Below, one piece after another: positions 32,100 through 47,751 of a stretch of DNA of 64,000 nt. The DNA lies in contig JAFDYQ010000013.1 in NCBI GenBank assembly GCA_018267365.1, forward strand, positions 1 through 64,000, in the 5' to 3' direction. A model generated the notes under the pieces. It was not told the origin of the DNA, searched no databases, and saw only the letters and a program-made list of their open reading frames with translations. The number at the start of each line of letters is the position of its first letter. Position 1 is the first letter of the stretch. The DNA comes from Bacteroidota bacterium (GTDB lineage Bacteria; Bacteroidota; Bacteroidia; Chitinophagales; LD1). The position numbers and the translations under genes were made by a program.

Positions 32100-33161
32100 A
32101 TGCACCTGATCAAAAACCACTGGTATCTAGCCTGCTTTGCTGACGAGCTACAGCCCGGCGGGCACCTCAGCCGTATGATATGCGGCGAAGACATCCTCCT
32201 CTACCGGACAGCCTCCGGGCAGGTAGCAGCACTCGAAAACCGCTGCTGCCACCGCAACGTACAGCTATCACTCGGCTATGTGAAGGGGGAGCATATGACC
32301 TGCGGCTATCACGGCTGGGAGTATGCTACTGACGGCCGCTGCGCCGCTATCCCATCTCTCGGCCCTGATGAAAAGATTCCCCGCGCGGCCTGCGTGCGGC
32401 ACTATCCCGTAGAGGTGCGGCATAGGTGTGTATGGGTCTTCGTAGGTGATCCGCTGCTGGCGTCCTATGAGGAGATACCACCCTTCAAAGAGCTGGATGA
32501 GTGGCCGATGGTGTACAACTACCATGTGATCAAAGCCAATGTAAAGCTGGTCGCAGAGAGCCTTTTTGACTCCCATCATATCAACCATGTACACCGCAAG
32601 AGCATCAAGACGCTGATGGGCAATCTGCACAATGAGAAGCCTGACTACCATCTCACCATCACTGACCGCTCGCTACACGGCTGGTACATGAGGGATAATG
32701 AGGGTAGCATCTTTGAGAAGTTCTACTTCGGCTTTCAGGACAAGGTAGAGGCGCACTTTGGCTTCTGGTGTCCGCATAGCAGCATGCTGGACCTCCGCTT
32801 CCCTGCACACCTGCATATGCCGTCGCGCCGCATGGTCATTTATGAGCATTTCTATCAGGTAGACGAGGATCATGTCATGATGATACAGATCACCACCTGG
32901 CATCGTATCTTCCGCTACAATCCCTGGTTTGCCCGGTGGTTTATGCTGCGCAAAAGCATGCAGATAGTAGAGGAGGATATCGCCTTTCTCGAGAGCAATA
33001 AATACTGGCACGACCGCCGAGGGCTCACAGATATGCTGATACGGCCCGATGAGCTTACCTTTGCCTTCACCCGCCTCTGGAATAAAAATATACCCACGGA
33101 TGCTACACGACCTGATCAGACGAAGGCTGCACCACTACCGCCGGCCACTCAGCTCTTCTGA
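32100..33161 (+). CDS. Rieske non-haem iron oxygenase of the carotenoid locus
   Basis: 353 residues. A Rieske [2Fe-2S] domain is at the N terminus with C49-x-H51 and C68-x2-H71, and a mononuclear iron site follows with D157, H160 and H165 (DxxH, then H five residues on). Such enzymes hydroxylate, demethylate or desaturate ring-like or lipid substrates with O2 and an electron donor. The start is the ATG giving MHLIKNHWYLACF; an ATG 24 bases upstream only adds a non-conserved tail. Its 3' end overlaps the CrtU/CruE-like gene by 62 bases, and the pairing suggests that it acts on a carotenoid ring end. No reductase is adjacent. Confidence 0.8.
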   Translation: MHLIKNHWYLACFADELQPGGHLSRMICGEDILLYRTASGQVAALENRCCHRNVQLSLGYVKGEHMTCGYHGWEYATDGRCAAIPSLGPDEKIPRAACVRHYPVEVRHRCVWVFVGDPLLASYEEIPPFKELDEWPMVYNYHVIKANVKLVAESLFDSHHINHVHRKSIKTLMGNLHNEKPDYHLTITDRSLHGWYMRDNEGSIFEKFYFGFQDKVEAHFGFWCPHSSMLDLRFPAHLHMPSRRMVIYEHFYQVDEDHVMMIQITTWHRIFRYNPWFARWFMLRKSMQIVEEDIAFLESNKYWHDRRGLTDMLIRPDELTFAFTRLWNKNIPTDATRPDQTKAAPLPPATQLF

Positions 33162-34596
33162 CCCTGCGCTGCCCTACACGGTCTCCGTGCCAAGGCGTGT
33201 GGCGGTCATAGGTGCGGGCATAGCCGGCATCAGTACTGCGTGCAATCTGGCAGAACGCGGCTTTGAGGTGCACCTGTATGAGAAGGAGCGCTTCCTGGGT
33301 GGCAAGGTGGGCAGCTGGCAGTTTGAGTCTAACGGTGAAACACTGCGCGCCGAGCATGGCTTTCACGGCTTCTTCCGCCAGTACTTTAATCTGCGCGCCT
33401 TCCTGAAGAAGCTGGGAGCAGACAAGCATCTCATACCGATAGATGACTATATCGTACTCTTTGACAAGGATAAGAAGCAAGGCTTCAAAGACCTGAGCCG
33501 CATACCTGTCATGAATATTCTGGATATGCGCCGCTATGGTGTCTTCTCGTGGAGTACCTTTGTGAGTCCCTTCAGCCTGCCCATGATCGATCTGCTGCGG
33601 TTCGATTTCAAAAGAACCTACCGGAAATATGACAAGGTCAGCTTTTCGGACTTTGCCCGCCGTACCAGGATGAATGATCGGATGAAACTCATCTTTAGTT
33701 CTTTCTCTCGGGCGTTCTTCGCAGAGCCCGAAGACATGTCTATGGCCGAGCTGATCAAGAGCTTCCACTTCTACTTTCTCAGCAACGAAGAGGGCCTGCT
33801 CTATGATGTACTGGACGATGACTTTCAGCATAGCTTCTTGTCATATTGCGAGGACTTCCTGAAAATGCACCAGGCACATATTTATCTCGACACACCCGTC
33901 ATCAGTCTCGCTAAAACGTCCGCAGGCTTCGAGGTAAACGGTACGGCCTATGACTATTGCGTACTCTGTACTGATGTGAAGCACACCAAGCGGCTCATGC
34001 ACTCAGCGCAGGGCTTCGAGCAGTATGCCCCCACGCTCTCTGCACTCACCGGCCTGAAGCAGACCAGCCGATATGCCGTACTGCGGGTCTGGACTGACCG
34101 CTATGAGGCAGATCCGTCACTGCCATTCTTTATCTTTACCGACAGGCTGCGCTGTCTGGACAGTGTCACGCTCTACCACAAGATGGAGAAGGAGTCCGCG
34201 CAGTGGAGCAGGACTCATAGTGGTGGTATCTTTGAGTTGCACTCTTATGCACTCCCAGAGGACCTACGCGATGAGGCAGAGATCAGGGCACAACTGCTGG
34301 AGGAGCTCTACCATTATTTCCCGGAGCTGCGTGGTATGACTATCAGGCATGAGTACATGCAGCACAGAGACGACTTTCCTGCCTTTCACACCGGCCAGTA
34401 TGCTACGCGGCCGGAGATAGTGACAGAGGTGCCCGGCTTCTACCTGGCGGGTGACTGGGTGCGTATGGACAACTGTACCATGCTGATGGAAGCAGCATAT
34501 ACGTCTGGTGCCCTGGCTGCTAACCATATCATGCGCCGGGAGGGACTACGTGAAAACGAACTCATCAGCGTGCCTACACAGGGACTCCTGGCATAA
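33100..34596 (+). CDS. CrtU/CruE-like carotenoid desaturase/methyltransferase
   Basis: 498 residues from the ATG giving MLHDLIRRRLHHY. FAD-binding Rossmann motif GAGIAG at 38-43 and the flanking EKERFLGGKVGSW, followed by EHGFHGFFRQYFN at 85-97. The last phrase is the signature I associate with CrtU/CruE, the enzymes that turn beta-rings into aromatic chi or phi rings by desaturation and methyl migration, and with zeta-carotene desaturases. A C-terminal FAD-contact region is FYLAGDWVRMDNCTMLMEAAYTSG. It overlaps the Rieske gene by 62 bases and is followed in the same frame, after one TAA, by the next desaturase. Aromatic-ring synthesis is inferred; a plain carotenoid desaturase remains possible. 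Confidence 0.65.
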   Translation: MLHDLIRRRLHHYRRPLSSSDPALPYTVSVPRRVAVIGAGIAGISTACNLAERGFEVHLYEKERFLGGKVGSWQFESNGETLRAEHGFHGFFRQYFNLRAFLKKLGADKHLIPIDDYIVLFDKDKKQGFKDLSRIPVMNILDMRRYGVFSWSTFVSPFSLPMIDLLRFDFKRTYRKYDKVSFSDFARRTRMNDRMKLIFSSFSRAFFAEPEDMSMAELIKSFHFYFLSNEEGLLYDVLDDDFQHSFLSYCEDFLKMHQAHIYLDTPVISLAKTSAGFEVNGTAYDYCVLCTDVKHTKRLMHSAQGFEQYAPTLSALTGLKQTSRYAVLRVWTDRYEADPSLPFFIFTDRLRCLDSVTLYHKMEKESAQWSRTHSGGIFELHSYALPEDLRDEAEIRAQLLEELYHYFPELRGMTIRHEYMQHRDDFPAFHTGQYATRPEIVTEVPGFYLAGDWVRMDNCTMLMEAAYTSGALAANHIMRREGLRENELISVPTQGLLA

Positions 34597-34599
34597 ACC

Positions 34600-36087
34600 A
34601 TTAAACCAACAGCGATCAATACAGCCGTAGTCATAGGATCTGGTATAGGTGGCCTGGCCGCAGCCATCCGCCTCTCGCGCAGGGGCTATCGTGTCACAGT
34701 GTATGAGCAGCATAGCACGATAGGAGGCAAGGTGCATCGGATAGAGCAGGACGGCTATAGCTGGGGCTTTGGTGCGTCGCTGTTTACTATGCCGGAGCTG
34801 TTGGATGAGTTGTTTATACTCTGTGGCAAAGATCCTGCGCAGTACTATCACTACACGCGCATCGACCCTGTGTGCCGCTACTTTTATGCCGATGGCACAC
34901 GCCTGGATGCCTGGGCAGAGACAGACCGCTTTGCCGCTGAGGTGCAGCAACAGACCGGTGAGCCTGCGGTCAAAGTAAAACAGTACCTGGAGCGGATCGC
35001 AAAGCTTTATGATGTCACAAAGGATATTTTCCTATTCCGCTCGCTGCACCGATGGCGGACCTATGCAGACCGCAACGCTCTGCGTTCCTTACTACACCTG
35101 CCACAGATAGGCATAGGCGGCAAAATGCACAAGGCGAATGAAGAAGCCTTCTCTGATTCACGCATCGTGCAGCTCTTTGACCGCTATGCCACCTACAATG
35201 GGTCCGACCCATACCTCGCACCCGCCACGCTGAACGTGATCTCGCACCTGGAGTATAACAAGGGTGCTTACTTCCTGGAGGATGGCATGCCCATGCTCAC
35301 ACGTAGCCTGTATCAGCTCGCTCTGGATATGGGCGTAGAATTTGTCACCTCTTGTACCGTGACTGGTATACACGTAGAGGATGGAAACACAACAGGAATA
35401 AAGACCGGAGGGGCCTTCGTACCTGCCGACATAGTGGTGAGCAATATGGATGTAGTGTACACCTATCGCCGGCTGATGCCGGAGCAGCAGGCACCCGCGC
35501 GATATCTCGATCAGCCGCGCTCGTCATCGGCCATCATTTTCTATTGGGGTATGGATCGTATCTTTCCTGAGCTGGACCTTCACAATATCTTCTTCAGCAG
35601 TGACTATGCAGAGGAGTTTCGCATGCTCAGTACGGAGCAGGATATCAGCGATGATCCGACCATCTATATCTACATCAGCAGCAAGAAGCAACCCACCCAC
35701 GCTCCGCAGGGTGGTGAGAACTGGTTTGTCCTGATCAATGCACCACATGATAGCGGGCAGGACTGGGATGCCGTAGCAGCGCGCGTACGCGCCAATGTCA
35801 TAGCTCGACTCAGCAGAGAGCTGGGCGTTGACATCGCTTCCTGTATTGCCACCGAAACAGTCAATCATCCCGGCACCATAGATAGTAAGACAGGTTCATA
35901 TCTCGGTGCGCTTTACGGCAGCAGCTCCAATAATGTGCTGGCGGCTTTCCTGCGGCATCCAAATTTCAGCAGGAGTATAGAGGGGTTATACTTTTGTGGA
36001 GGTAGCGTACACCCTGGTGGCGGTGTGCCGCTCTGCCTGCTGTCTGCGCATATCATAGATGATCTATTGTCAAACAAGAAGGCCTGA
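34600..36087 (+). CDS. CrtD/CrtI-like carotenoid desaturase with apparent ATT start
   Basis: About 495 residues, of the CrtI fold: Rossmann GSGIGG at 13-18, and C-terminal YFCGGSVHPGGGVPLCLLSAHI, a signature of CrtI/CrtD oxidoreductases. CrtD introduces the 3',4' double bond in 1'-hydroxy carotenoids, matching the CruF gene in this locus. The start is odd: no ATG, GTG or TTG occurs in frame between the upstream TAA (34594-34596) and a GTG at 34699 that already lies behind the FAD-binding motif. The only sensible start is ATT at 34600 (reading Met-KPTAINTAVVIGSG). The frame continues that of the preceding gene, so readthrough or a mutated ATG are alternatives. Confidence 0.75.
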   Translation: MKPTAINTAVVIGSGIGGLAAAIRLSRRGYRVTVYEQHSTIGGKVHRIEQDGYSWGFGASLFTMPELLDELFILCGKDPAQYYHYTRIDPVCRYFYADGTRLDAWAETDRFAAEVQQQTGEPAVKVKQYLERIAKLYDVTKDIFLFRSLHRWRTYADRNALRSLLHLPQIGIGGKMHKANEEAFSDSRIVQLFDRYATYNGSDPYLAPATLNVISHLEYNKGAYFLEDGMPMLTRSLYQLALDMGVEFVTSCTVTGIHVEDGNTTGIKTGGAFVPADIVVSNMDVVYTYRRLMPEQQAPARYLDQPRSSSAIIFYWGMDRIFPELDLHNIFFSSDYAEEFRMLSTEQDISDDPTIYIYISSKKQPTHAPQGGENWFVLINAPHDSGQDWDAVAARVRANVIARLSRELGVDIASCIATETVNHPGTIDSKTGSYLGALYGSSSNNVLAAFLRHPNFSRSIEGLYFCGGSVHPGGGVPLCLLSAHIIDDLLSNKKA

Positions 36088-36112
36088 TGTTTGCAGGAAA
36101 AAAGCAATCGTG

Positions 36113-36811
36113 ATGAAGTACACCTACCTGCTCATAGATATATTTACCGTGGTCATGCCGCTGGTCTTCTCTTTTGACAGCCGCGTGGCTTTCTACAAAA
36201 AGTGGAAGTATCTGCTGCCTGCTATGCTCGTCACAGCGGCTATCTTTATCGTGTGGGACCACTATTTTACAGTAGCAGGTGTGTGGAGTTTCAATCATGC
36301 GTATACGCTGGGTCTTGACATCTGGTCGCTGCCGGTAGAGGAGATACTCTTCTTTATCACGGTACCGTATTCCTGCGTTTTCATCTATGAGAATATCTGC
36401 TGCTACAAACCCCGCAAACTCCTGTCTGATAGCCTCTGGATCGTGCAGCTGATCTTGCCTGCCGTGTTTGGTATACTGGCATATATGTCCGCGGCTCGTG
36501 CCTACACGCTCTCTGTCACGATGGGTATGACCATCTTCCTGCCCCTCGCGGTGTGGGCGCTTCGGGCGGATCAGCTGGAGAATTTTGTCCTATCCTTCCT
36601 CGTCAGCATACTCCCCATGCTGGTAGTCAATGGCATACTGACAGCCCTGCCGGTAGTGCGCTATGACGATCTGCAGAACTGCGGCATCAGGCTCGGCACC
36701 ATCCCGATAGAGGACTTCCTGTATGGTGCTCTTCTGCTCGGTATCAATATCTGCATCTATGAGGTGCTGCAAAGTATAGCGACGCGTACCGCACCGGAGC
36801 GAACAAAGTAA
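36113..36811 (+). CDS. Lycopene cyclase, fused CrtYc-CrtYd type
   Basis: 232 residues with about seven membrane segments. Two internal repeats carry the cyclase motif: PVEEILFFITVPYSCVFIYE (about 70-89) and PIEDFLYGALLLGINICIYE (about 197-216). This is the fused form of the heterodimeric CrtYc/CrtYd cyclases of Actinobacteria, which make beta-rings from lycopene psi ends in the membrane; members of this family often act on one end only, giving monocyclic products. The start ATG follows the desaturase stop by 25 bases; an upstream in-frame ATG would overlap the desaturase gene and adds no membrane segment. Confidence 0.85.
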   Translation: MKYTYLLIDIFTVVMPLVFSFDSRVAFYKKWKYLLPAMLVTAAIFIVWDHYFTVAGVWSFNHAYTLGLDIWSLPVEEILFFITVPYSCVFIYENICCYKPRKLLSDSLWIVQLILPAVFGILAYMSAARAYTLSVTMGMTIFLPLAVWALRADQLENFVLSFLVSILPMLVVNGILTALPVVRYDDLQNCGIRLGTIPIEDFLYGALLLGINICIYEVLQSIATRTAPERTK

Positions 36812-36844
36812 GCCATGCCGGTGTTTAGACACTAAAAGAAACCG

Positions 36845-37519
36845 ATGCTGAAAGTAAAAGTGGACCATGATGAAGCCGGCGAAATGGGAGACAATCACGT
36901 CATGACCTCTGCCGAAACACCGCTCCGCGCAGATGCCTTTGCTATGGACGATGACCTGAAGGTAGAACTGATAGAGGAGAAGTTTGCCGAGATCATGCAT
37001 ATACTCGGCCTCGACCTCGAGGACGATAGCCTGCGCGGTACGCCGCACAGGGTGGCAAAGATGTACGTCAAAGAGATCTTTAGCGGTCTCAATCCTGCCA
37101 ATAAGCCGAAGATCGCTGTATTTGAAAACAAGTTCAAATACCACGAGATGCTGGTAGAGAAAGACATCGCTTTCTACAGCAACTGTGAGCACCACTTTGT
37201 GCCCATCATAGGCCGCGCACATGTGGCCTACATCAGCGAGGGTCAGGTGATAGGCCTGTCAAAGATCAACCGCCTCGTGCAGTATTATGCCAAACGGCCA
37301 CAGGTACAGGAGCGCCTCACCATACAGATAGCAGAGGCTATCAAAGAGGCTACAGGCACGGACAGCGTAGCAGTGGTGATAGACGCACAGCACCTCTGTG
37401 TATCCTCCCGTGGTGTGGGTGACACGAGCTCAGCTACGGTCACTTCCAGCTTCTCGGGCCGCTTTCTCAATGAGCAGACACGCAATGAGTTTCTGGCCTA
37501 CTGTGGACTGAATAAGTAG
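36845..37519 (+). CDS. folE: GTP cyclohydrolase I
   Basis: 224 residues, converting GTP to dihydroneopterin triphosphate, the first step to folate and pterins. Zinc ligands are C114 and H117 (NCEHH) and C185 (HLCVSSRG), with the usual GTPHRVAKMY helix and QVQERLT motif. The extra acidic N terminus (about 35 residues) is not unusual for Bacteroidota. It sits between the lycopene cyclase and an SDR gene within the light locus, suggesting light-linked supply of pterin, possibly for the flavoprotein encoded nearby. It may be a second, specialised copy; the genome outside is not visible. Confidence 0.93.
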   Translation: MLKVKVDHDEAGEMGDNHVMTSAETPLRADAFAMDDDLKVELIEEKFAEIMHILGLDLEDDSLRGTPHRVAKMYVKEIFSGLNPANKPKIAVFENKFKYHEMLVEKDIAFYSNCEHHFVPIIGRAHVAYISEGQVIGLSKINRLVQYYAKRPQVQERLTIQIAEAIKEATGTDSVAVVIDAQHLCVSSRGVGDTSSATVTSSFSGRFLNEQTRNEFLAYCGLNK

Positions 37520-37525
37520 ATCACT

Positions 37526-38221
37526 ATGAAGGACTATATCGTCATAGGTGGCACATCAGGCATAGGCCTGGAGATCGTGCGTAGTCTGTCCGCAGCCGGT
37601 CATCATGTACACGTGCTCTCACGTAGCCAGCGAAACCTGGATGGGCTCGATCGTGTCAGCCATACCGTGTGGGATGCGCTGGGCGGAGAGGCTCCCGCAG
37701 GGGAGTGGCCAGCTCAGATAGACGGGCTGGTGTACTGCCCCGGCAGCATCACACTGAAGCCTTTTCACCGGCTGACGGGTGAGGATTTCATCTCAGACTA
37801 TCAGGTGAATGTGATCGGTGCAGTGCGCGCTATACAATATTTCCTGCCGGCGCTGAAAGCCGCAGAGTTGCCGTCCATTGTACTCTTCAGCACAGTGGCC
37901 GTGAAGACAGGTATGCCGTTTCACGCCTCTATCAGCGCTGCCAAGGGGGCCATAGAAGGGCTCACCCGCTCACTGGCAGCGGACCTCGCACCCCGCATCC
38001 GCGTGAACTGCATCGCTCCCTCGCTGGTACAGACAGAGCTGAGCGCACGGCTCACATCCTCTGAGGAAAAGATCAAAGCGTCTGCACAGCGCCACCCTCT
38101 CGCGCGCATCGGCACGCCTGCTGATATAGCTGCTATGGCTACACTGCTACTCACAGAGGCTCAGTGGATCACAGGTCAGGTGCTACATATAGATGGTGGT
38201 ATGAGCAGCCTCAGGCTCTAG
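37526..38221 (+). CDS. SDR-fold protein lacking the catalytic Tyr
   Basis: 231 residues with SDR nucleotide-binding GGTSGIG (8-14), the NVIG segment near 95, Ser at 122 (LFSTVAV) and Lys140, but the residue four before the Lys is Ile136 instead of the catalytic Tyr (FHASISAAKGAIEGL). The C-terminal IDGG motif is kept. I recall similar Tyr-less SDRs beside folE and cryptochrome-like genes in Flavobacteria, so the loss is probably a family trait, not decay. It starts six bases after folE and converges with the flavoprotein gene three bases away. A pterin-related role is possible but unproven. Confidence 0.75.
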   Translation: MKDYIVIGGTSGIGLEIVRSLSAAGHHVHVLSRSQRNLDGLDRVSHTVWDALGGEAPAGEWPAQIDGLVYCPGSITLKPFHRLTGEDFISDYQVNVIGAVRAIQYFLPALKAAELPSIVLFSTVAVKTGMPFHASISAAKGAIEGLTRSLAADLAPRIRVNCIAPSLVQTELSARLTSSEEKIKASAQRHPLARIGTPADIAAMATLLLTEAQWITGQVLHIDGGMSSLRL

Positions 38222-38224
38222 CAC

Positions 38225-39313
38225 TTAGAGGTACTTTTCACATTTTTTCCAGAAGGACATAAAGGAGCCCGGTGCATGTACCACCTGCGGGAACAGCCAC
38301 TCCGGCTCATCCAGCGTGGCAGGGTAGTGCAGCGAGGACGGATGCTTCTTTGCAAAGATATGTGGGAAGGAAGCTGTACGCATCAGATCATCCACACCGC
38401 CGCAGAATAGCTGTATGCCCGGAATATTCTCTGCGAGCTCAAGGATGAAAGACAATACGCGCGGAGATACGGGATACTTCCTGTAGTGCTCCGGTTCCAG
38501 TAGCAGTACCCTATTGGCATCCATCTCCCTGCGCCAGAGCGGGTCCAGGGTACATGCGTTATAGATCAGCAGCGGTTTGTTGTATAGCAGTTGCAGTGCC
38601 GGCGTATCCGGTAGTCTTGTTTGTAGCTGTGGCAGGGAGTGTTTGCTCAGGACTTGAGGCATGGGCAGATGGGCCAGCTGTTCATACGGCACATCGAGAA
38701 AGCTATCCCTCTGGTCCGTATGGCAGAACTTATTGATATTACTCTGGTCGCAATAGTACTTCTTAGAAGAGAAAGTTCCCGCTACCCACTGCCAGCTCAG
38801 CGTATTGCTGGCCAGGTCATGATCCGCTAGATGGTAATACATCCATCGGGATGGTGCGGCCCAATGAGCCCGGCCTATATTGCAGGCCAGAGAGGCTACA
38901 TACATACGCAGGTGGTTGTGCATGTAGCCGGTGGTGTGGAGCTGCTCTATAGCGGCATCTATGGCAGTGATACCTGTGGTCGCAGTGAGCAGCGCATCGG
39001 GTATGCTGTAGTGACAAAAGCCTTGCTGCGGCCCTTTGATATCTGACCATATGCGGTCTCCCAGCTGGTACCACTGCCGCTGAAAGTACTCACGCCAGGC
39101 CAGTTCAAAAATAAAGGTGTATGCCTGCTCCCTGCTATAGCGGCTCAGCACGCGCTCCCGCACATAGGGCAGCGAAAGGACACCGCGCGATATATATGGC
39201 GAGAGGTAGCTCACCGCACCATCGATATAGTTTCTGGTACCGGCATATGCTACAGCATCTACGCGGTCTACTGCCGCCAGTATATCAGCATAGCGCGTCA
39301 GCAGGTCCGTCAT
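38225..39313 (-). CDS. Cryptochrome/photolyase-like FAD protein lacking the N-terminal antenna domain
   Basis: 362 residues. Residues about 30-200 match the FAD-binding half of photolyases and cryptochromes: YLSPYISRG (37-45), FIFELAWREYFQ (67-78), TGYMHNHLRMYVAS (128-141) and a DLASNTLSWQWVAGT-type flavin loop (166-180). The family normally begins with an alpha/beta antenna domain of about 130 residues, which is missing. Instead residues about 245-330 form an alpha/beta-like segment (LLIYNACTLDPLW, RVLLLEPEHY, IQLFCGGVDDL), suggesting a domain placed behind the FAD module. It overlaps the flavin reductase gene by four bases (ATGA). Likely a blue-light sensor or repair enzyme; which one is undecided. 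Confidence 0.8.
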   Translation of the reverse strand: MTDLLTRYADILAAVDRVDAVAYAGTRNYIDGAVSYLSPYISRGVLSLPYVRERVLSRYSREQAYTFIFELAWREYFQRQWYQLGDRIWSDIKGPQQGFCHYSIPDALLTATTGITAIDAAIEQLHTTGYMHNHLRMYVASLACNIGRAHWAAPSRWMYYHLADHDLASNTLSWQWVAGTFSSKKYYCDQSNINKFCHTDQRDSFLDVPYEQLAHLPMPQVLSKHSLPQLQTRLPDTPALQLLYNKPLLIYNACTLDPLWRREMDANRVLLLEPEHYRKYPVSPRVLSFILELAENIPGIQLFCGGVDDLMRTASFPHIFAKKHPSSLHYPATLDEPEWLFPQVVHAPGSFMSFWKKCEKYL

Positions 39314-39792
39314 ATAGAGATCAGTTTTTTGTCACGGAGGTGATGTAGCATCAGCACTTCGCCTTCTGCCATATTGCGGTAGCTCACTACATCGCAGAGA
39401 GCTAGTATATGGTCGCCGGCATCGGTTAGTGAGCGCACCTGCAGCTCTATCACAGCCAGCGCATCACTCAGCACCTGGTAACCATTGTAACCTGTGAGCC
39501 GCTTGCTGAGTGTTTTTAGCTTGTCTTTGCGGCGACCGCTTTGTTTGCCCAGGCGATTGATCAGGTCGAGATGCGCCGTGCTCAGTATCTGCAGGACCAT
39601 GCTTTCTTGCTGCATCACGTTGTCCAGTGTTTTCGTTTCCTTGTATACTGCCACCATATAGCGCTTGGGCTGCATAGAGACCTGCGAGGCGTAGGTGCAG
39701 ATGTTCATATTGTGCTGTCGGCCATCATGGCTGGCTATGCTGTACACAGGCAGGTCCAGACGGTTCCAGGGCTTCTTTCTGATAGTAGGCAT
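39310..39792 (-). CDS. Flavin reductase-like (split-barrel FMN-binding) protein
   Basis: About 160 residues from the ATG giving MPTIRKKPWNRLDLPVYSIAS. Resembles the flavin reductase-like split-barrel domain (NICTYASQVSMQPKRYMVAVYKE), which binds FMN or FAD and reduces it with NAD(P)H. An ATG 33 bases upstream is less likely. Its stop overlaps the start of the cryptochrome-like gene, so the two are co-translated; it may reduce or deliver the flavin of that protein. Transcribed divergently from the TonB receptor gene. Confidence 0.75.
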   Translation of the reverse strand: MPTIRKKPWNRLDLPVYSIASHDGRQHNMNICTYASQVSMQPKRYMVAVYKETKTLDNVMQQESMVLQILSTAHLDLINRLGKQSGRRKDKLKTLSKRLTGYNGYQVLSDALAVIELQVRSLTDAGDHILALCDVVSYRNMAEGEVLMLHHLRDKKLISI

Positions 39793-39882
39793 TGGCTTTT
39801 TATGATACAAGTAGTGAACAAACAAGCTTTTACATTGTTTCAGCTACTATAACCATTACACCACGAGATTGTTTAGCCCCAC

Positions 39883-42249
39883 ATGAACAAGCTTTCGACC
39901 CTTCTATTAGTGTGCCTGTCCTTTACAGCCATGGCTCAGTCTGGTATCATCCGAGGCCGGATAGCGGTAGCCGGTAGCAATGCACCCCTTGATTTTGCCA
40001 CTGTAGCGCTGGATGGCACTACGATCGGTACACAGACAGATGAGAAGGGTGAATATGAATTCAAAGACCTTCAGCCTGGTTTCTACAATGTCAAAATATC
40101 CAGTGTAGGCTATACGGCCAAGACGGTCTATGAGGTGGAGGTGACCAACTCAAAGCCTGCCATAGTCAATGCCGAGCTAGAGAGCAGTACCGAGAAGCTC
40201 AAAGAGGTGGAGGTCACCACGGGTACCTTTCAGCGCAAAGAGGAGAGCCCGGTGTCTATCCGCACTATCGGAGTGAATGAGATACAGCGCTATCCGGGCG
40301 GCAATCGTGACATATCGCGTGTGATACAATCCCTGCCGGGTGTCGGCGTCAGTACTGGTTTTCGCAATGACCTGATCATACGCGGTGGCTCTACGGCTGA
40401 GAATAAGTTTTACCTGGATGATATAGAGATACCCAATATCAATCACTTTGTCACACAAGGTGGCTCAGGCGGGCCGCAGGGCCTGATCAATGTGGACTTT
40501 ATCCGAGAGGTCAATTTCTACTCATCGGCTTTTCCGGCAGACAGGGGCAATGTACTCAGCTCTGTAATGGACATACGGCTGCGCGATGGCCGGGAGGACA
40601 GGTGGGGTGCTGCCGCCGCACTGGGTATCACAGATGCGGCCCTCTCTGCAGAGGGACCGCTGGACAAGAAGAAGAAAGCCACCCTGCTGCTATCCTGGCG
40701 CTCCTCCTACTATGACTGGTTTTTCAAACTCATCAATGTACCGATATTCCCAAACTATAATGATGGTCAGGTGAAGCTGAGATGGAAGATCACTCCCAAA
40801 GATGAATTGACCTTTCTAAGCCTGAATGCTATCGATATATTTCGGCTAAACCTGAATGCCAATAAAACCGAAGAAAACAGATACCTGCTGCAACTCTTGC
40901 CCGTCAATAATCAGCAGAGCACTACCAATGGCCTCAAGTATACCCACTTCTTTACCAATAGCTATCTGCAGGCAGTGGTGAGCAGTAGTGAGTTATTTAA
41001 CCAGATAGATAAGTACAAGGATAATAGCAAAGACTCTACCCGCACGCAGTACTACCGCTCCACACAGGCAGAGACTAAGGCACGCCTCGAGTGGACCAAA
41101 CGCAGCAAGGGCTGGAAGATCAATGTAGGTGGCAATCTGGAGTGGGACCGCTACTACAACCGCTCACAGTTTCAGGGTACGTACTTCCGCTATGACTACC
41201 TGACCCGGCTGGATATCTACCGCTACGGCGTCTTCTCACAGGTGAGCAAGACTGTAGCCAAAGATCGCCTCACCCTTTCACTAGGCATGCGGCTGGATGG
41301 CAATACTTACAATGAGAGTATGCTCAATCCGCTCAATCAACTATCACCGCGCTTTGCGCTGTCTTATACTATACTGGAGCGACTGAGGCTAAACTTTAAC
41401 ACGGGCTACTACCATGAGACGCCTGCCTATACCGTGATGGGCTACAGAGATACTACCGGAGCGCTGGTCAATCAAAAGCGCCTCACCTATATGCGGAATA
41501 TACATGTGGTAGCAGGCATAGAGTATACTACGAAATATAACAGCCGCATCTCCGTGGAGGGCTTCTTCAAGCAGTACTACAATGTCCCCTTCCTGCTGGA
41601 TGACTCTATCTCGCTGGCCAATCAGGGCAGCAACTTCGGAGTAGTGGGCAATGCTCCTGCACAGAGCACTAACAAGGGCAGGTCCTACGGTGGTGAGTTT
41701 CTCTTTGAGCAGAAATTGTACAAGGGATGGTTTGGTATTCTGTCTTACACGCTGTTCTGGAGCCAGTTTCAGGATAAGTACGGCGTGTATCAATCCTCCA
41801 GCTGGGATACGCGCCACATCATTAGCCTCACAGCGGGCAAGAAGTTTAAGCGTAACTGGGAGCTGGGGGCTAGATGGCGCGTACAGGGCGGATCTCCATA
41901 TACGCCTTATGACATAGCCTACTCCACGCTCATACCGGTCTACACGGCAAATCCTGGCGGCGTATTCGACTATAATAGACAGAACTCTCTTCGCCTGCCG
42001 TGGTTTCACCAACTGGATATGCGCGTGACCAAGAAGTGGTACCTCAAGGCGCTGTCTATAGAGCTCTACCTCGATATACAGAATGTCTACTACCACAAGC
42101 AAAAGCAGCAGGACCTGTTTACTATAAAACGCGATGCTAACGGACAGCCGCTAGTAGATCCATCAGACCCGACACGCTACATCCCTAACCTGCTGGCCAA
42201 TACTTCCGGAGTACTACAGCCGGGGCTGGGACTCGTGATCAGCTATTGA
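39883..42249 (+). CDS. TonB-dependent outer-membrane receptor
   Basis: 788 residues: a signal peptide (1-18), a carboxypeptidase-like regulatory domain (about 20-105, GIIRGRIAVAGSNAPLDFATVAL), a plug domain (about 115-225, with GVNEIQRYPGGNRDISRVIQSLPGV and IRGGSTAENKFYLDDIEI), and a 22-strand barrel to the end. No SusD partner is nearby, arguing against a classical polysaccharide system. It lies inside the carotenoid locus but is flanked by short-distance opposite-strand genes, so its link to the pathway is only positional. Cargo unknown. Confidence 0.9.
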   Translation: MNKLSTLLLVCLSFTAMAQSGIIRGRIAVAGSNAPLDFATVALDGTTIGTQTDEKGEYEFKDLQPGFYNVKISSVGYTAKTVYEVEVTNSKPAIVNAELESSTEKLKEVEVTTGTFQRKEESPVSIRTIGVNEIQRYPGGNRDISRVIQSLPGVGVSTGFRNDLIIRGGSTAENKFYLDDIEIPNINHFVTQGGSGGPQGLINVDFIREVNFYSSAFPADRGNVLSSVMDIRLRDGREDRWGAAAALGITDAALSAEGPLDKKKKATLLLSWRSSYYDWFFKLINVPIFPNYNDGQVKLRWKITPKDELTFLSLNAIDIFRLNLNANKTEENRYLLQLLPVNNQQSTTNGLKYTHFFTNSYLQAVVSSSELFNQIDKYKDNSKDSTRTQYYRSTQAETKARLEWTKRSKGWKINVGGNLEWDRYYNRSQFQGTYFRYDYLTRLDIYRYGVFSQVSKTVAKDRLTLSLGMRLDGNTYNESMLNPLNQLSPRFALSYTILERLRLNFNTGYYHETPAYTVMGYRDTTGALVNQKRLTYMRNIHVVAGIEYTTKYNSRISVEGFFKQYYNVPFLLDDSISLANQGSNFGVVGNAPAQSTNKGRSYGGEFLFEQKLYKGWFGILSYTLFWSQFQDKYGVYQSSSWDTRHIISLTAGKKFKRNWELGARWRVQGGSPYTPYDIAYSTLIPVYTANPGGVFDYNRQNSLRLPWFHQLDMRVTKKWYLKALSIELYLDIQNVYYHKQKQQDLFTIKRDANGQPLVDPSDPTRYIPNLLANTSGVLQPGLGLVISY

Positions 42250-42263
42250 CCGAGATAGAAGTG

Positions 42264-42974
42264 CTACCACTCAATAGGCTGACCATCGCGATAGAAGCCT
42301 CCGGTGGGACCATCCGGGCCGAGCGTAGCAGCCCATACGATCCCCTTGGCACCCTCGCTGACAGGACGTGCACCATAGGCGGCAGTTCCCGGATAGGTAG
42401 CTACAAATCCGGGACAAACTGCGTTGATCTTGATACCTGTATCTTTTAGCTCGTGGGCCAGATGAATGGTGAGCGCATTGAGCGCAGTTTTAGTGATGCT
42501 GTAGACTGGCGTGGCTCCGGGCCTTGCGCCGATACCAAAAGAAGGGTCGTGGAAGGAACCAGCCCCGCTGGATACATTCACTATCCGCGGAGCATCGCTG
42601 CGCTGCAGCAAAGGAGCGAAGGCCCTGATCATGCGCCATGCACCGAGCAGATTGGTGTCCAGCGCTTCATGTACGAATGCAGTTTCTGTCTCCAGTGCAT
42701 GTGCACCCTGGTCATAATAGGCACCTGCATTATTGATAAGCACGTCCAGTTTCTCATAGTCTCTCTCTATGGTCCTGCACAGCGCCTCTATACTGCCGGG
42801 GTCGGTTACATCCAGCTGTTCGGCTTGCAGATTCGCCGGGCCTGCCAGAGATTTGGCTTGATAGATATCCCGGGCGGAGACGATGACGAAATAGCCCAGT
42901 TGTGACAGCTGTCTGGCAGTTTCAAACCCGAGACCGGTTTCCCGGCTCACTCCGGTGATCAATGCTACTTTCAT
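42264..42974 (-). CDS. Short-chain dehydrogenase/reductase
   Basis: 236 residues of a classical SDR: TGVSRETGLG (8-17) cofactor loop, DVTD at about 54-57, NNAG at about 80-83, catalytic Ser in NVSSGAG, and Tyr/Lys in VYSITK. Prefers probably NADP(H), given Arg near the second beta-strand (SAR). It converges with the TonB receptor (14 bases between stops) and is divergent from the CruF-type gene. A role in carotenoid end-group oxidation is conceivable but not shown by sequence. Confidence 0.88.
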   Translation of the reverse strand: MKVALITGVSRETGLGFETARQLSQLGYFVIVSARDIYQAKSLAGPANLQAEQLDVTDPGSIEALCRTIERDYEKLDVLINNAGAYYDQGAHALETETAFVHEALDTNLLGAWRMIRAFAPLLQRSDAPRIVNVSSGAGSFHDPSFGIGARPGATPVYSITKTALNALTIHLAHELKDTGIKINAVCPGFVATYPGTAAYGARPVSEGAKGIVWAATLGPDGPTGGFYRDGQPIEW

Positions 42975-43090
42975 GATTTCCCCTTTTTAGGAAAGATAAC
43001 AACAGGAGAAGTAGCAAGGTTCGTTTGTTAAATAATTCTTCGGCGAACATTTCGTATCACGCCTTGTTATCAGGGTGTAATGAGATTATT

Positions 43091-43831
43091 ATGGTTAGTA
43101 TTGCCGCCGATATGATGGATAGCTCTTCGGGCAAAAGTGTGCGCTGGGTGGTAGCCATACTAGTGATCCTGCATGCGGTAGGCATTGCAGGTCTTCATAC
43201 TGTTCATTATAGCTATTGGTTTGAGACTATCACCTGGCTCAATCTGCTCGTCAGCTTCACACTGGTCCTGAGCTATTACCGCGGGTGGACAGGCATGCAG
43301 GTACTCTTCATAGCGGCAGCTATGGGTATATCTCTGATGGCAGAGATCATTGGCGTTCAGCGCGGTATCCTCTTTGGCGCCTACCACTATGAACGCATGG
43401 CCGGGCCTGGACTGCTGGGCGTCCCCTTGGTGATAGGGTTGAACTGGGTACTCCTCACGATTTGTACGGGTACATTTGCCGCAGCTTTGTTTCATCACAC
43501 CGGGGCGCGCATACTGATAGCTGCAGCGATGATGGTGGGTATAGATATACTACTCGAGCAGTTTGCCATGCAGCATCACCTCTGGGCGTGGGATAGCTCC
43601 ACACCGCCTCTTTTCAACTACCTGACCTGGGGCGCGGTAGCTCTGGTACTACAGCTACTCTACGCCATGCTATGGAAGGATCAGGGCAATAAAATAGCTG
43701 TGGCCTATCTGGTCATTCTGTTGTTATTTCTGGTCACGGACGGGCTTTTTGCCCATGGTACTATGCACATGGGTGCATGGACCGATCCTCATCATTTGAT
43801 TAGTTTTGATCACGTAGTAAAGTCAGGGTAG
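43091..43831 (+). CDS. CruF-type carotenoid 1',2'-hydratase
   Basis: 246 residues with seven to eight membrane segments, of the DUF422/carotenoid biosynthesis protein family. Motifs: GVQRGILFGAYHYE, GVPLVIGLNWVLL, a D-x-x-x-E-pattern in GIDILLEQFAMQHHLWAW, and LFLVTDGLFAHG. CruF hydrates the psi end of monocyclic carotenoids at C-1'. The ATG giving MVSIAADMMDSS is preferred; upstream ATG at 43025 would add a polar stretch that overlaps a regulatory-looking sequence (GTTTGTTAAATAAT). Two bases separate its stop from the photoreceptor gene, so they are coupled. Fits the adjacent CrtD-like gene in modifying the psi end. Confidence 0.85.
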   Translation: MVSIAADMMDSSSGKSVRWVVAILVILHAVGIAGLHTVHYSYWFETITWLNLLVSFTLVLSYYRGWTGMQVLFIAAAMGISLMAEIIGVQRGILFGAYHYERMAGPGLLGVPLVIGLNWVLLTICTGTFAAALFHHTGARILIAAAMMVGIDILLEQFAMQHHLWAWDSSTPPLFNYLTWGAVALVLQLLYAMLWKDQGNKIAVAYLVILLLFLVTDGLFAHGTMHMGAWTDPHHLISFDHVVKSG

Positions 43832-43833
43832 GC

Positions 43834-44706
43834 ATGGGACAGTATTCTATCAAAGATGTAGAGGTGCTATCAGGTATCAAAGCGCACACCCTGCGTATAT
43901 GGGAGAAGCGCTATGACTTTCTGAAGCCGGAGCGTACAGATACCAATATCCGCTACTACAATGACTATCAGCTCCGGCTGATACTCAATATCAGCACGCT
44001 CAACCGCAAAGGCTATAAGATATCCCGTATAGCTCACATGACGGAGAAGGAGCTCAACGCGGAGCTGCTGCGCAGCAGTGATGAGGCCGACACGGATGAT
44101 CAGACTGACAGGCTGGTCCGTGCCATGATAGACTTTGAGGCTGATGCCTTTGAGAAGGTCATCAACCAGCTCACCAATAAGTTTGGTTTTGAGGATACGT
44201 GTATCCGTCTCTTCTTTCCCTTTATGATGCGTACGGGTGTGCTATGGACGGCCGGCACTATACGCCCCGCTCAGGAGCACTTTGTGACCAACCTCCTCCG
44301 CAGAAAGCTGCTGGCGGCCATAGATCGCGTACAGACACCGGTCCGAGACGATGCAAAGTGCTATGTCCTCTTCCTGCCCGAGGGGGAAAACCATGAGACA
44401 CTGCTGCTCTTCACTGAGTACCTGCTGCGTCTGCGTAGCCAGCATGTAGTCTACCTGGGCAGTGCCGTACCGTTGGAGGATCTCGTATACGTCCGCGATG
44501 CCTTCCGCCCGGATGTGCTCGTCACCTACATATCCATAGAGCAGGAGACCATCAGTACACAGGAGTACCTGCGCCAGCTGGCAGAGATATATCCTGATAC
44601 CCGTATACTGGCAGGTGGTGCGCGCCTGACCCAGCCAGATCTCCATCTGGCTGCCCATATCACCGTGGTCAACTCAGTAGCCGCGCTGAAGGAGGCTATC
44701 TCCTGA
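43834..44706 (+). CDS. CarH/LitR-like B12-dependent MerR-family photoreceptor regulator
   Basis: 290 residues: a MerR helix-turn-helix (residues 1-70, YSIKDVEVLSGIKAHTLRIWEKRY), a helical cobalamin-cap domain with Wx9EH (W138, E148, H149), and a Rossmann B12-binding domain where the lower-ligand His is H187 (EGENHETL, in place of the usual D/ExHxxG). These residues let CarH bind adenosylcobalamin in the dark as a repressor tetramer and release DNA upon light. It is two bases behind the CruF-type gene and precedes the ECF sigma factor. It likely represses the sigma factor and carotenoid genes in the dark. Confidence 0.85.
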   Translation: MGQYSIKDVEVLSGIKAHTLRIWEKRYDFLKPERTDTNIRYYNDYQLRLILNISTLNRKGYKISRIAHMTEKELNAELLRSSDEADTDDQTDRLVRAMIDFEADAFEKVINQLTNKFGFEDTCIRLFFPFMMRTGVLWTAGTIRPAQEHFVTNLLRRKLLAAIDRVQTPVRDDAKCYVLFLPEGENHETLLLFTEYLLRLRSQHVVYLGSAVPLEDLVYVRDAFRPDVLVTYISIEQETISTQEYLRQLAEIYPDTRILAGGARLTQPDLHLAAHITVVNSVAALKEAIS

Positions 44707-44765
44707 TCTTTTTCAAAGCAGTAAATTTTAATCTTTTGGGATTCAATGTGTTGAGTGCCCGCTAG

Positions 44766-44846
44766 TCTTTTGTTTAATATTTTTCACAAAAGATTAAACA
44801 AAATTCCTTTCTACTGTTTAACTTTGTGTTACAAAAGTTAAACAAA
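44766..44846 (+). promoter_or_regulatory. Candidate CarH operator array and promoter of the ECF-crtI-crtB operon
   Basis: Four TTTGTTTAA-like half-sites alternate in orientation: 44769-44778 (TTTGTTTAAT), 44793-44802 (ATTAAACAAA), 44815-44822 (TGTTTAAC) and 44837-44846 (GTTAAACAAA). Their centres are 24, 21 and 23 bases apart, close to two helical turns. The third overlaps a TAnnTTTG-like box (TAACTTTG, 44819-44826), so bound repressor would cover the promoter. The leader is very short. Confidence 0.5.
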
Positions 44847-45355
44847 TGACATTTGCCAGCCAGCTTTTACAATACGAACCCAGCCTTAAATCTCTCGCTT
44901 TTTACCTGACCGGCAGTGCCGCCCGTAGTGAAGACCTGATACAGGAGACCTACTACCGGGCGCTGCGCAATGAAGACAAGTACCAGCAAGGCACTAACCT
45001 GAAGGCATGGCTGAGTACCATCATGCGCAATATCTTTATCAATGACTATCACAAGAAGAAAGTAGTGCAGCCTATAGGCGATGGCGACCGTGAGGTGCGC
45101 GATACCTACCGCACGGAGATCAACGGCTCCTACAGAAACTTCCTGTCACAGGAGATCAGCCATGCTATGGAGACGGTCAATAGTGATTTTACCAAGCCAT
45201 TCCTGATGTATTTTTCAGGGTTTCAGTACCAGGAGATAGCTGAGCAGCTACACCTGCCTATAGGTACTGTAAAGAGCCGCATACACTCTGCGCGCAAAGA
45301 GCTACAGACGCGCCTGCGCGCAATGGGCATAGAAAATGCAGCATACCTCAACTAA
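44846..45355 (+). CDS. ECF-type RNA polymerase sigma factor
   Basis: 169 residues with sigma region 2 (about 8-75, including GSAARSEDLIQETYYRAL and LKAWLSTIMRNIFINDY) and region 4 (about 110-160, PFLMYFSGFQYQEIAEQL, GTVKSRIHSARKEL). It starts RNA polymerase at alternative promoters. No anti-sigma gene follows; instead it leads an operon with crtI and crtB and follows the B12-photoreceptor gene, an arrangement like litR-litS in Actinobacteria, where light releases the sigma factor gene from repression. Stop is 7 bases before the crtI start. Confidence 0.92.
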   Translation: MTFASQLLQYEPSLKSLAFYLTGSAARSEDLIQETYYRALRNEDKYQQGTNLKAWLSTIMRNIFINDYHKKKVVQPIGDGDREVRDTYRTEINGSYRNFLSQEISHAMETVNSDFTKPFLMYFSGFQYQEIAEQLHLPIGTVKSRIHSARKELQTRLRAMGIENAAYLN

Positions 45356-45362
45356 CCTCATT

Positions 45363-46874
45363 ATGGGAAAAGACCAACATGTGATCGTGATAGGGTCGGG
45401 ATTTGCCGGGCTGAGCGCTGCCAGCACACTGGCACAGCAGGGCTACCGGGTGACTATGCTGGAGAAAAACGACCAGCCCGGAGGCCGCGCGAGGCTCTAT
45501 GAAGAGGGAGGGTTCACCTTTGATATGGGGCCTAGCTGGTACTGGATGCCGGCTGTATTTGAGGATTACTATCGTCATTTTGGGCACACGGCTTCAGACT
45601 TTTATGATCTGCGCCGGCTAGACCCGTCCTACCGTGTTTTCACCACCGGTGAGGGAGCAGATGTACCTGCCGCCTTTGATAGCCTGGTAGCATTCTTTGA
45701 AAGTAGAGAGAAGGGTGCGGGAGCAAGGTTGAAAGCCTTTCTGGATGAGGCAAAGACGAAGTACGACATAGCTATGAGCGATCACGTACACCGTCTGAGT
45801 GACTCCATCACAGAGTTTCTGGATATCAGCACGCTGCTCGGCACCACGCGGCTGCAGATGTTTCACTCGCTGAAAAAGGTGATCCGGTCAAAGTTTAAAG
45901 ACCCGCTGCTGGTGAGTATACTGGAGTTTCCATCACTTTTCCTGGGCGCTACACCGGAGACCACACCCGCGCTCTACAGCATGATGAACTATGCAGACCT
46001 GGTACTCGGCACCTGGTATCCTATGGGTGGCATGTACGAGATCATACGCGCCATGGTGCGCATAGCGGAGGAGCAGGGCGTAGAGATCATCTGCGGCTCG
46101 GAGGTGACCAGTATAGATGTGGTCAGTGGCTTGGCCAGAGGAGTAGTATGCGGCGCTGTACGCTATAGCGCAGATGCAGTCATAGCTACCTCAGACTATC
46201 ACTATACCGAGCAAAAGCTACTGCCTGAGCAGTACCGCCGCTACGATGAGCGCTACTGGGATGCGCGCACTATGTCTCCCTCGGCGCTGATCTACTACCT
46301 GGGTATAGATCGCAGGCTACCGGGCCTGCTGCATCACAACCTTTTCTTTGACGAGGACTTTGCCATACATGCCCGGGAGATATACAGTGACCCTCAGTGG
46401 CCATCGGCACCGCTTTTCTATGTGTGTGCGCCGTCTGTGACAGATCCCGGAGTAGCACCTGATGGCAGTGAGAATCTATTCCTGCTCATGCCGCTGGCGC
46501 CTGGCCTGGAGGATACGGAGGAGATGCGGCGCAAGTACTTTGATATCATGATCTCGCGGCTGGAGCAGCGTATCGGGCAACCTTTTCGTGAAAAGATTGT
46601 TGTACAAAAGAGCTACTGCATCCGTGACTTTGAAAAAGACTATCATGCCTACAAAGGCAATGCCTACGGACTGGCCAATACGCTGATGCAGACAGCTATA
46701 CTGAAGCCTAAGATGCGCTCTGCCAAGGTGAAGAACCTGCTCTATGCAGGCCAGCTCACAGTGCCCGGGCCGGGGGTGCCGCCAGCCATCATCTCGGGCC
46801 AGATAGCGGCCGGGGCCCTGATGAAACAGCTAAAGAAAACATCTATACACACTAAAACTCACGCCCATGTTTAA
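45363..46874 (+). CDS. crtI: Phytoene desaturase
   Basis: 503 residues, a FAD-dependent desaturase converting phytoene to lycopene through four steps. Rossmann GSGFAG at 11-16, then EKNDQPGGRA and GFTFDMGPSWYWMP, with the C-terminal FAD-contact segment LLYAGQLTVPGPGVPPAIISGQ typical of CrtI. The ATG at MGKDQHVIVIGSG is preferred; an upstream ATG overlaps the sigma-factor gene. It overlaps the phytoene synthase ATG by eight bases, the standard crtIB arrangement in Bacteroidota. Confidence 0.93.
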   Translation: MGKDQHVIVIGSGFAGLSAASTLAQQGYRVTMLEKNDQPGGRARLYEEGGFTFDMGPSWYWMPAVFEDYYRHFGHTASDFYDLRRLDPSYRVFTTGEGADVPAAFDSLVAFFESREKGAGARLKAFLDEAKTKYDIAMSDHVHRLSDSITEFLDISTLLGTTRLQMFHSLKKVIRSKFKDPLLVSILEFPSLFLGATPETTPALYSMMNYADLVLGTWYPMGGMYEIIRAMVRIAEEQGVEIICGSEVTSIDVVSGLARGVVCGAVRYSADAVIATSDYHYTEQKLLPEQYRRYDERYWDARTMSPSALIYYLGIDRRLPGLLHHNLFFDEDFAIHAREIYSDPQWPSAPLFYVCAPSVTDPGVAPDGSENLFLLMPLAPGLEDTEEMRRKYFDIMISRLEQRIGQPFREKIVVQKSYCIRDFEKDYHAYKGNAYGLANTLMQTAILKPKMRSAKVKNLLYAGQLTVPGPGVPPAIISGQIAAGALMKQLKKTSIHTKTHAHV

Positions 46875-47751
46875 CCTATTCGTCAAAACCAGTACGGCCT
46901 GCAGCAGGCTAGTGACCCAGGCGTACAGCACCAGTTTCTCTCTCGGTATCCGCACGCTGCATCCGCGCCTGAGAGATGCGATCTATGGCATCTACGGCAT
47001 GGTACGCTATGCAGATGAGATCGTAGATACTTTTCATGACTTTGACAAGAAGGCACTGCTGGCCAAATTTAAAGCAGATACCTATGAGGCCATCAGAGAC
47101 GGTATCAGCCTGAATCCGATACTGCAAAGCTACCAGCTGGTGGTGAACCGCTACCAGATACCAGCGGAGCTGACAGAGGCATTCTTTCGCAGTATGGAGA
47201 TGGACCTGTATGAGACCGCCTATGGCCGTGAGGGCTATGAAGAGTATATATATGGCTCGGCAGAGGTAGTGGGGCTCATGTGCCTCTATGTTTTCACCGA
47301 AGGTGACAAGGACATGTATGCTACGCTGGAGCCATCGGCGCGTGCTCTGGGTGCTGCCTTTCAGAAGGTCAATTTCCTGCGCGATATGGGCAGCGATTTT
47401 GACGAGCGGGGCAGGGTGTACTTTCCGGGCATAGACTTTGCCCGCTTTGGCGATGCTGCCAAGCAGCAGATAGAGCAGGAGATAGCGCATGACTTTGCGC
47501 TGGCGCTGGAGGGCATACGCCAGCTGCCTGTCACTGCACGTGGCGGTGTACTGCTGGCGTATAAATATTATATGAGGTTGTTTGCCCGTATACGCCACAC
47601 GCCGGCCAGCGTGATCAGCACCGTGCGCATACGCGTGCCGGACATGGAGAAGCTACTCCTGCTATGTGTGACACTGACAGGTGAGTCAGTGAAAAAAGCC
47701 TTCGGCCAGACTACACTGCGCAGGGTAGAGAGCTACCAGCAGGCAGCGTAA
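46867..47751 (+). CDS. crtB: Phytoene synthase
   Basis: 294 residues of the squalene/phytoene synthase family: joins two GGPP into phytoene. Asp-rich motifs DEIVD (50-54) and DMGSDFDERGRVYFP (about 169-183) bind Mg-diphosphate; YSTSFSLG near the N terminus is also typical. Overlaps the crtI end by eight bases, so translation is coupled. No GGPP synthase gene (crtE) is found in the window. Confidence 0.93.
   Translation: MFNLFVKTSTACSRLVTQAYSTSFSLGIRTLHPRLRDAIYGIYGMVRYADEIVDTFHDFDKKALLAKFKADTYEAIRDGISLNPILQSYQLVVNRYQIPAELTEAFFRSMEMDLYETAYGREGYEEYIYGSAEVVGLMCLYVFTEGDKDMYATLEPSARALGAAFQKVNFLRDMGSDFDERGRVYFPGIDFARFGDAAKQQIEQEIAHDFALALEGIRQLPVTARGGVLLAYKYYMRLFARIRHTPASVISTVRIRVPDMEKLLLLCVTLTGESVKKAFGQTTLRRVESYQQAA

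Follow-up and report, generated by a model that had tools for sequence, protein, structure and literature searches.

Photolyases with an inverted domain order have been described before, and where they belong in the evolution of photolyases is under debate (PMC9498864, PMC9649867). In picocyanobacteria (Synechococcus and Cyanobium), Phr4/5 and Phr6 have a reverse domain order, phr4/phr5 raised the UV survival of photolyase-deficient E. coli, and Phr7 joins an N-terminal FAD domain to a C-terminal Z-domain (PMC9426592). Likewise, the NewPHLs or SPLs (Emmerich et al. 2020, Xu et al. 2021, as cited in PMC13274461, PMC9649867 and PMC9178010) repair CPDs in single-stranded DNA and have an inverted domain topology, according to a 2026 paper (PMC13274461). 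The known families go under the terms 'reverse domain order' or 'NewPHL', and a literature search under the name circularly permuted photolyase found nothing. In the NewPHL abstract, the FAD site is reportedly described as sealed by the C-terminal domain, and NewPHLs as possible substitutes for DASH.

Here, we describe a photolyase gene of this layout on a 64,000-nucleotide stretch of contig JAFDYQ010000013.1 (assembly GCA_018267365.1) from a Bacteroidota bacterium, hereafter called the window (Table 1). Its product is probably an inverted-topology CPD photolyase, related to NewPHL/SPL and Phr4-6 and appearing to represent a Bacteroidota branch of its own. The domain inversion, which a sequence-only reading of the window had pointed out, is genuine and was correctly seen, but it lies within a known kind of protein. 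Because reverse-order families with the same layout have already been published (NewPHL/SPL cited in PMC13274461; Phr4/5, Phr6 and also Phr7 in PMC9426592), the suggestion of a new type of blue-light flavoprotein had to be given up.

Table 1. Features of the inverted-topology photolyase locus (window positions)
Feature	Positions	Strand	Basis or remark
folE, GTP cyclohydrolase I	36845..37519	+	Opposite-strand neighbour; one of two folE copies in this genome; probably outside the unit
SDR-family oxidoreductase	37526..38221	+	Opposite-strand neighbour
Inverted-topology photolyase gene (P0001), 362 aa	38225..39313	-	ATG start, Pfam, homologues
FAD-binding catalytic module, residues 1-234	38612..39313	-	PF03441 at 67-229; hhalign 100% to canonical photolyase catalytic domains
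GYMHNHLRM (residues 129-137), HNH signature of inverted-order photolyases; most canonical ones have HNR	38903..38929	-	
WQW (residues 174-176), inner electron-chain tryptophan and CPD-stacking tryptophan	38786..38794	-	Alignment
C-terminal alpha/beta domain, residues 242-362; probably shortened, permuted antenna-type	38228..38590	-	Profile comparison, model
Flavin reductase (PF01613), upstream of photolyase	39310..39825	-	Longest ORF from TTG 39825; ATG 39792 likelier start
MerR/B12 regulator, CarH-like; possible light regulator of the island	43834..44706	+	Below the CarH equivalog cut-off

The FAD-binding domain PF03441 (FAD_binding_7, E 8e-25) is the sole Pfam match of the protein; neither the antenna domain PF00875 nor the DPRP domain PF04244 of FeS-BCP and prokaryotic 6-4 photolyases was matched by Pfam anywhere in its 362 residues. 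The gene does therefore start almost directly in the FAD module, and the usual antenna domain is absent from its N terminus, as had been read from the letters. The best NCBIfam match of this module is the DASH model TIGR02765, at 82 bits against a cut-off of 317. The solved structures closest by sequence are class I CPD photolyases, aligned over residues 26 to 182, and no solved inverted-topology photolyase structure was among the matches of the PDB sequence searches. At the other end, the segments LLIYNACTLDPLW (residues 248-260), RVLLLEPEHY (268-277) and IQLFCGGVDDL (300-310) lie where they had been placed, and alternating strands and helices predicted in the models bear out the compact alpha/beta unit proposed for this part. 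With the FAD module first, the alpha/beta part last and the closest kin equally inverted, the swapped order proposed at the outset was upheld.

As to function, the Glu/Trp/Asn/Met/Trp repair-site residues of CPD photolyase are all present in the window protein, and E70, W73, R74, N133, R136, M137, W151, D164, D166, N170, W174 and W176 are conserved in its family. The roles of WQW and the other mapped active-site positions, which we take to be established photolyase knowledge, were placed via alignment. DASH proteins differ at M137 (Q) and W176 (Y), and FeS-BCP proteins at most of the positions. The outer electron-chain residue is a tyrosine, Y130, as in other inverted proteins. Since every CPD-photolyase active-site residue checked has been kept, 'photolyase' fits this protein better than 'blue-light receptor', and the earlier labels of cryptochrome-like protein or blue-light flavoprotein, taken in the sense of a receptor, are not favoured. 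The conserved residues thus predict CPD repair, and a preference for single-stranded DNA may be supposed solely by analogy with relatives.

A true cryptochrome, i.e. a blue-light receptor no longer capable of repair and using its C-terminal domain or the flavin reductase for signalling, would suit a gene whose surroundings, a light-related island, include carotenoid genes and a CarH-like regulator, and which encodes one of three photolyase-type proteins in its genome. Yet we hold this to be distinctly improbable, given that no family member deviates at the CPD-repair residues, even at positions where DASH and FeS-type proteins vary, that no output domain is attached and that DNA repair or UV protection has been published for inverted relatives (PMC13274461, PMC9426592). 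Two cryptochrome-receptor traits were sought in the sequence, namely missing repair residues and a C-terminal tail for signalling, and neither was found.

In a CPD photolyase of this kind, reduced FAD in the N-terminal helical module would absorb blue light and give an electron to the pyrimidine dimer, splitting it, as the conserved residues suggest. The small C-terminal alpha/beta domain would pack at the position usually taken by the N-terminal antenna domain and shield the FAD; judging by its short length and the known NewPHL case, it probably carries no antenna chromophore. Re-reduction of the FAD could then proceed via W174-W151-Y130 or be carried out by the co-translated flavin reductase.

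The gene belongs to a family whose full-length homologues, at 39-78% identity, come from Bacteroidota and also from two MAGs with a Paceibacterota/Nomurabacteria label. Profile searches place the family in 29 of 140 genera of the window's order (47 of 299 genomes) and in 18 of 296 genomes across the phylum, with most members measuring 360-400 aa. Pfam detects PF03441 in all 15 members of the first family alignment and gives no consistent match for their C-terminal part. Invariant positions nevertheless occur in both parts of the family alignment, for instance E70, W73, N133, W151, D164, N170, W174 and W176 in the FAD module and Y251, D257, W260, P281, H324, P325, F351 and W355 in the C-terminal part. 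The open reading frame is thus not a chance one, because its homologues are conserved over both parts.

The same conservation largely refutes the reading that we are dealing with a truncated, decaying photolyase. The missing N-terminal antenna domain would agree with such a remnant, as would internal stop codons in two relatives (several in G209:C192:1740-2814 and one TGA in G235:C117:115974-117056), which mark either decayed copies or sequence errors. However, almost every homologue is uninterrupted and close to the others in length, also in other families and under a second phylum label, and both protein parts have invariant residues, so that decay is almost certainly not the explanation. 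Separately, one relative (G564:C393:10640-11224) was matched in its FAD part alone (profile positions 5-196) in a frame of 268 aa and is a possible split or truncated member. The two members with Paceibacterota/Nomurabacteria labels (L008 and L009) branch first within the family, pointing either to a transfer into CPR bacteria or to misbinned contigs.

Where, then, does this family stand among the inverted proteins? Beyond the family, a tblastn search of plasmids turned up proteins with this inverted layout in Deinococcus (about 460 aa) and Alphaproteobacteria (about 400 aa); the alphaproteobacterial references were picked by taxon and layout and are taken as NewPHL-like, characterised NewPHL members being those of D. 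shibae and M. mesophilicum. Of 47 inverted proteins, 46 carry the motif G[YWFI]xHNHxR, which none of 49 canonical ones has. With the family's FAD profile, the inverted proteins of Deinococcus and Alphaproteobacteria reach 110-166 bits and canonical ones at most 105. In a tree of FAD modules, the inverted proteins are split from class I plus DASH with a support of 100/99. The window family groups with the alphaproteobacterial inverted proteins on their side of this split, yet it forms a clade of its own (100/97). FeS-BCP stands apart in the tree, and the union of all inverted proteins against it has a low support of 79/28. By these comparisons of sequence, the window family is a separate Bacteroidota branch, distinct from the NewPHL-like alphaproteobacterial set.

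With NewPHL/SPL, the family shares a leading FAD module with a C-terminal domain after it, a similar length, a CPD-type active site and the lack of an N-terminal alpha/beta domain. It differs from the alphaproteobacterial NewPHL-like proteins in its separate clade, in a C-terminal domain of about 120 rather than about 148 aa and in having WQW where theirs is WRW. Phr4/Phr5, Phr6 and their Deinococcus look-alikes (L097, L098, L110 and L111) have the reverse domain order as well, and the look-alikes also share the HNH signature and have the FAD modules closest to the family by profile score. In contrast to the family, this group has the four cysteines of an iron-sulfur cluster and an antenna-type domain of full length: CxxC after W[QR]W is present in four of four Deinococcus proteins and in none of 37 family members. 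Among the inverted kinds compared, the C-terminal domain of the window family is the shortest. Class I CPD photolyases (e.g. PDB 1owl/1tez) have the same catalytic module and all the key repair residues but the opposite domain order, HNR instead of HNH and no FNP region after WQW. DASH cryptochromes (TIGR02765), finally, have an N-terminal antenna domain as well as Q and Y in place of the family's M and W; they perhaps fill the same niche. On a plasmid of Deinococcus sp. QL22, the FAD half and the antenna half lie on two overlapping ORFs (L110:496-1269 and 1266-1787), with the CxxC retained, much like the published phr4/phr5 pair of marine Synechococcus.

The origin of the short C-terminal domain is harder to read. 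The full-length AlphaFold model, built from seven sequences, was set aside as too poor (pLDDT 50), although strands and helices alternate in it from residue 248; a scan of viral contigs gave no further loci for the modelling alignment. Modelled alone from seven sequences, residues 242-362 adopt an alpha/beta arrangement in the order b-b-a-a-b-a-b, with a core pLDDT of about 80-90, a mean of 71.5 and low confidence in the last 30 residues. Foldseek searches of this model returned no match with E below 0.001, be it against the PDB or against viral libraries; the top viral match, a poxvirus photolyase-like alpha/beta protein (E 0.05), was not used as evidence. The antenna domains of photolyases are established members of the HUP group, and the best VIA-align matches were HUP-like folds, i.e. 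universal stress proteins and phosphopantetheine adenylyltransferases (Z 4-6), with a class II photolyase reaching Z 4.4 over 109 residues. Of the fold prediction and structure search against photolyase domains that the sequence-only reading had called for, the alpha/beta fold was thus borne out and a significant PDB match was not obtained.

Profile comparison by hhalign in local mode, with 40 column shuffles as a control, gave the family C-domain a score of 21.7 with canonical antenna domains, where no shuffle exceeded 14.7, and of 22.0 with the inverted Deinococcus C-domain, where the best shuffle reached 21.3; the registers of these two matches are compatible. The comparison with alphaproteobacterial C-domains (11.6) stayed within the shuffles (maximum 17.2). 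The N-terminal domain of FeS-BCP was rejected as a template, its score of 15.9 likewise lying within the shuffles (maximum 22.1). The direct hhalign probability linking the family C-domain to antenna-type domains is weak (5.6-5.9%), and in a profile search with 524 decoy ORFs, eight of the 11 best matches were photolyase alpha/beta domains, each of them weak. The Deinococcus C-domain, for its part, matches canonical antenna domains with 96.7% over 133 columns, and one Deinococcus inverted protein has PF00875 at residues 300-395, below the Pfam cut-off. Because relatives with the same layout carry such a domain, and with direct evidence that is weak, the family C-domain is probably a shortened antenna-type domain (about 120 aa, compared with 173 aa in canonical antenna domains) that has moved to the C terminus.

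Alternatively, it could be an unrelated HUP/Rossmann-like domain that was acquired separately for a different job, as the weak direct similarity to antenna domains and the leading structural matches to universal stress proteins and phosphopantetheine adenylyltransferases would allow. We consider this unlikely: a clear antenna-type domain sits at the same place in the related Deinococcus lineage, the weak matches cluster in photolyase domains and the FxxFWKK end of the family resembles the FFGFWKR end of the split QL22 protein. A relocated antenna-type domain therefore remains our preferred reading.

Compared with what is known of inverted photolyases, the additional elements are a well-supported Bacteroidota branch, the lack of iron-sulfur cysteines and the minimal C-terminal domain; of particular interest are the near exclusion of DASH and the frequent, tight coupling to a flavin reductase. 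Counting DASH above the TIGR02765 cut-off, family (47 genomes) and DASH (103 genomes) occur together in a single one of the 299 genomes, with about 16 expected by chance. The Fisher p of 2e-8 is taken over genomes whose pattern strongly follows lineages, meaning that the exclusion is only suggestive and not independent evidence. The inverted photolyase probably takes the place of a DASH-type, single-strand photolyase in these genomes.

The flavin-reductase coupling noted at the outset recurs family-wide: in the window, the reductase stop overlaps the photolyase ATG by four bases (ATGA), and a reductase lies near the family gene in 22 of 41 loci, directly adjoins it on the same strand in 10 and overlaps it by 1-4 bases in seven. 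One may imagine that the branch gave up light harvesting, that a dedicated co-translated reductase supplies or reduces its flavin, that it replaces DASH across much of Bacteroidota and that the minimal C-domain docks the reductase, a scheme that we rate as speculative and rather unlikely as a whole. Being compact and widespread, this branch offers a small target for structure work, and its coupled reductase allows us to ask whether inverted photolyases replace DASH and whether their FAD stays reduced only with the help of a partner.

The wider neighbourhood is more variable. In the window's genus, the photolyase adjoins folE, the SDR gene and carotenoid genes, with the CarH-like regulator nearby. 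The adjacency of folE that had drawn attention earlier is real; as a sign of a pterin antenna, it was rejected because, among the compared loci, folE neighbours the photolyase only in this genus, and because another folE copy exists elsewhere in the genome. Around the photolyase unit, a carotenoid island (33049-47751) holds two CrtI/CrtD-like oxidoreductases, a lycopene cyclase, a third desaturase-like gene, the CarH-like regulator and an ECF sigma factor. The genome also encodes a class I-like and an FeS-BCP-type photolyase, and a photolyase of the latter type lies near the family gene in 24 of 41 loci. DUF2805/TIGR03643, a small protein without an assigned function, is a neighbour in 19 of 41 (e.g. 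L007:2977-3255), and at least one of flavin reductase, FeS-BCP-type photolyase and DUF2805/TIGR03643 is present in 37 of 41. Finally, seven loci (e.g. L101:4959-6479) have, downstream of the inverted photolyase, a second one of canonical order that measures about 500 aa and lacks the usual NNGGWQW motif.
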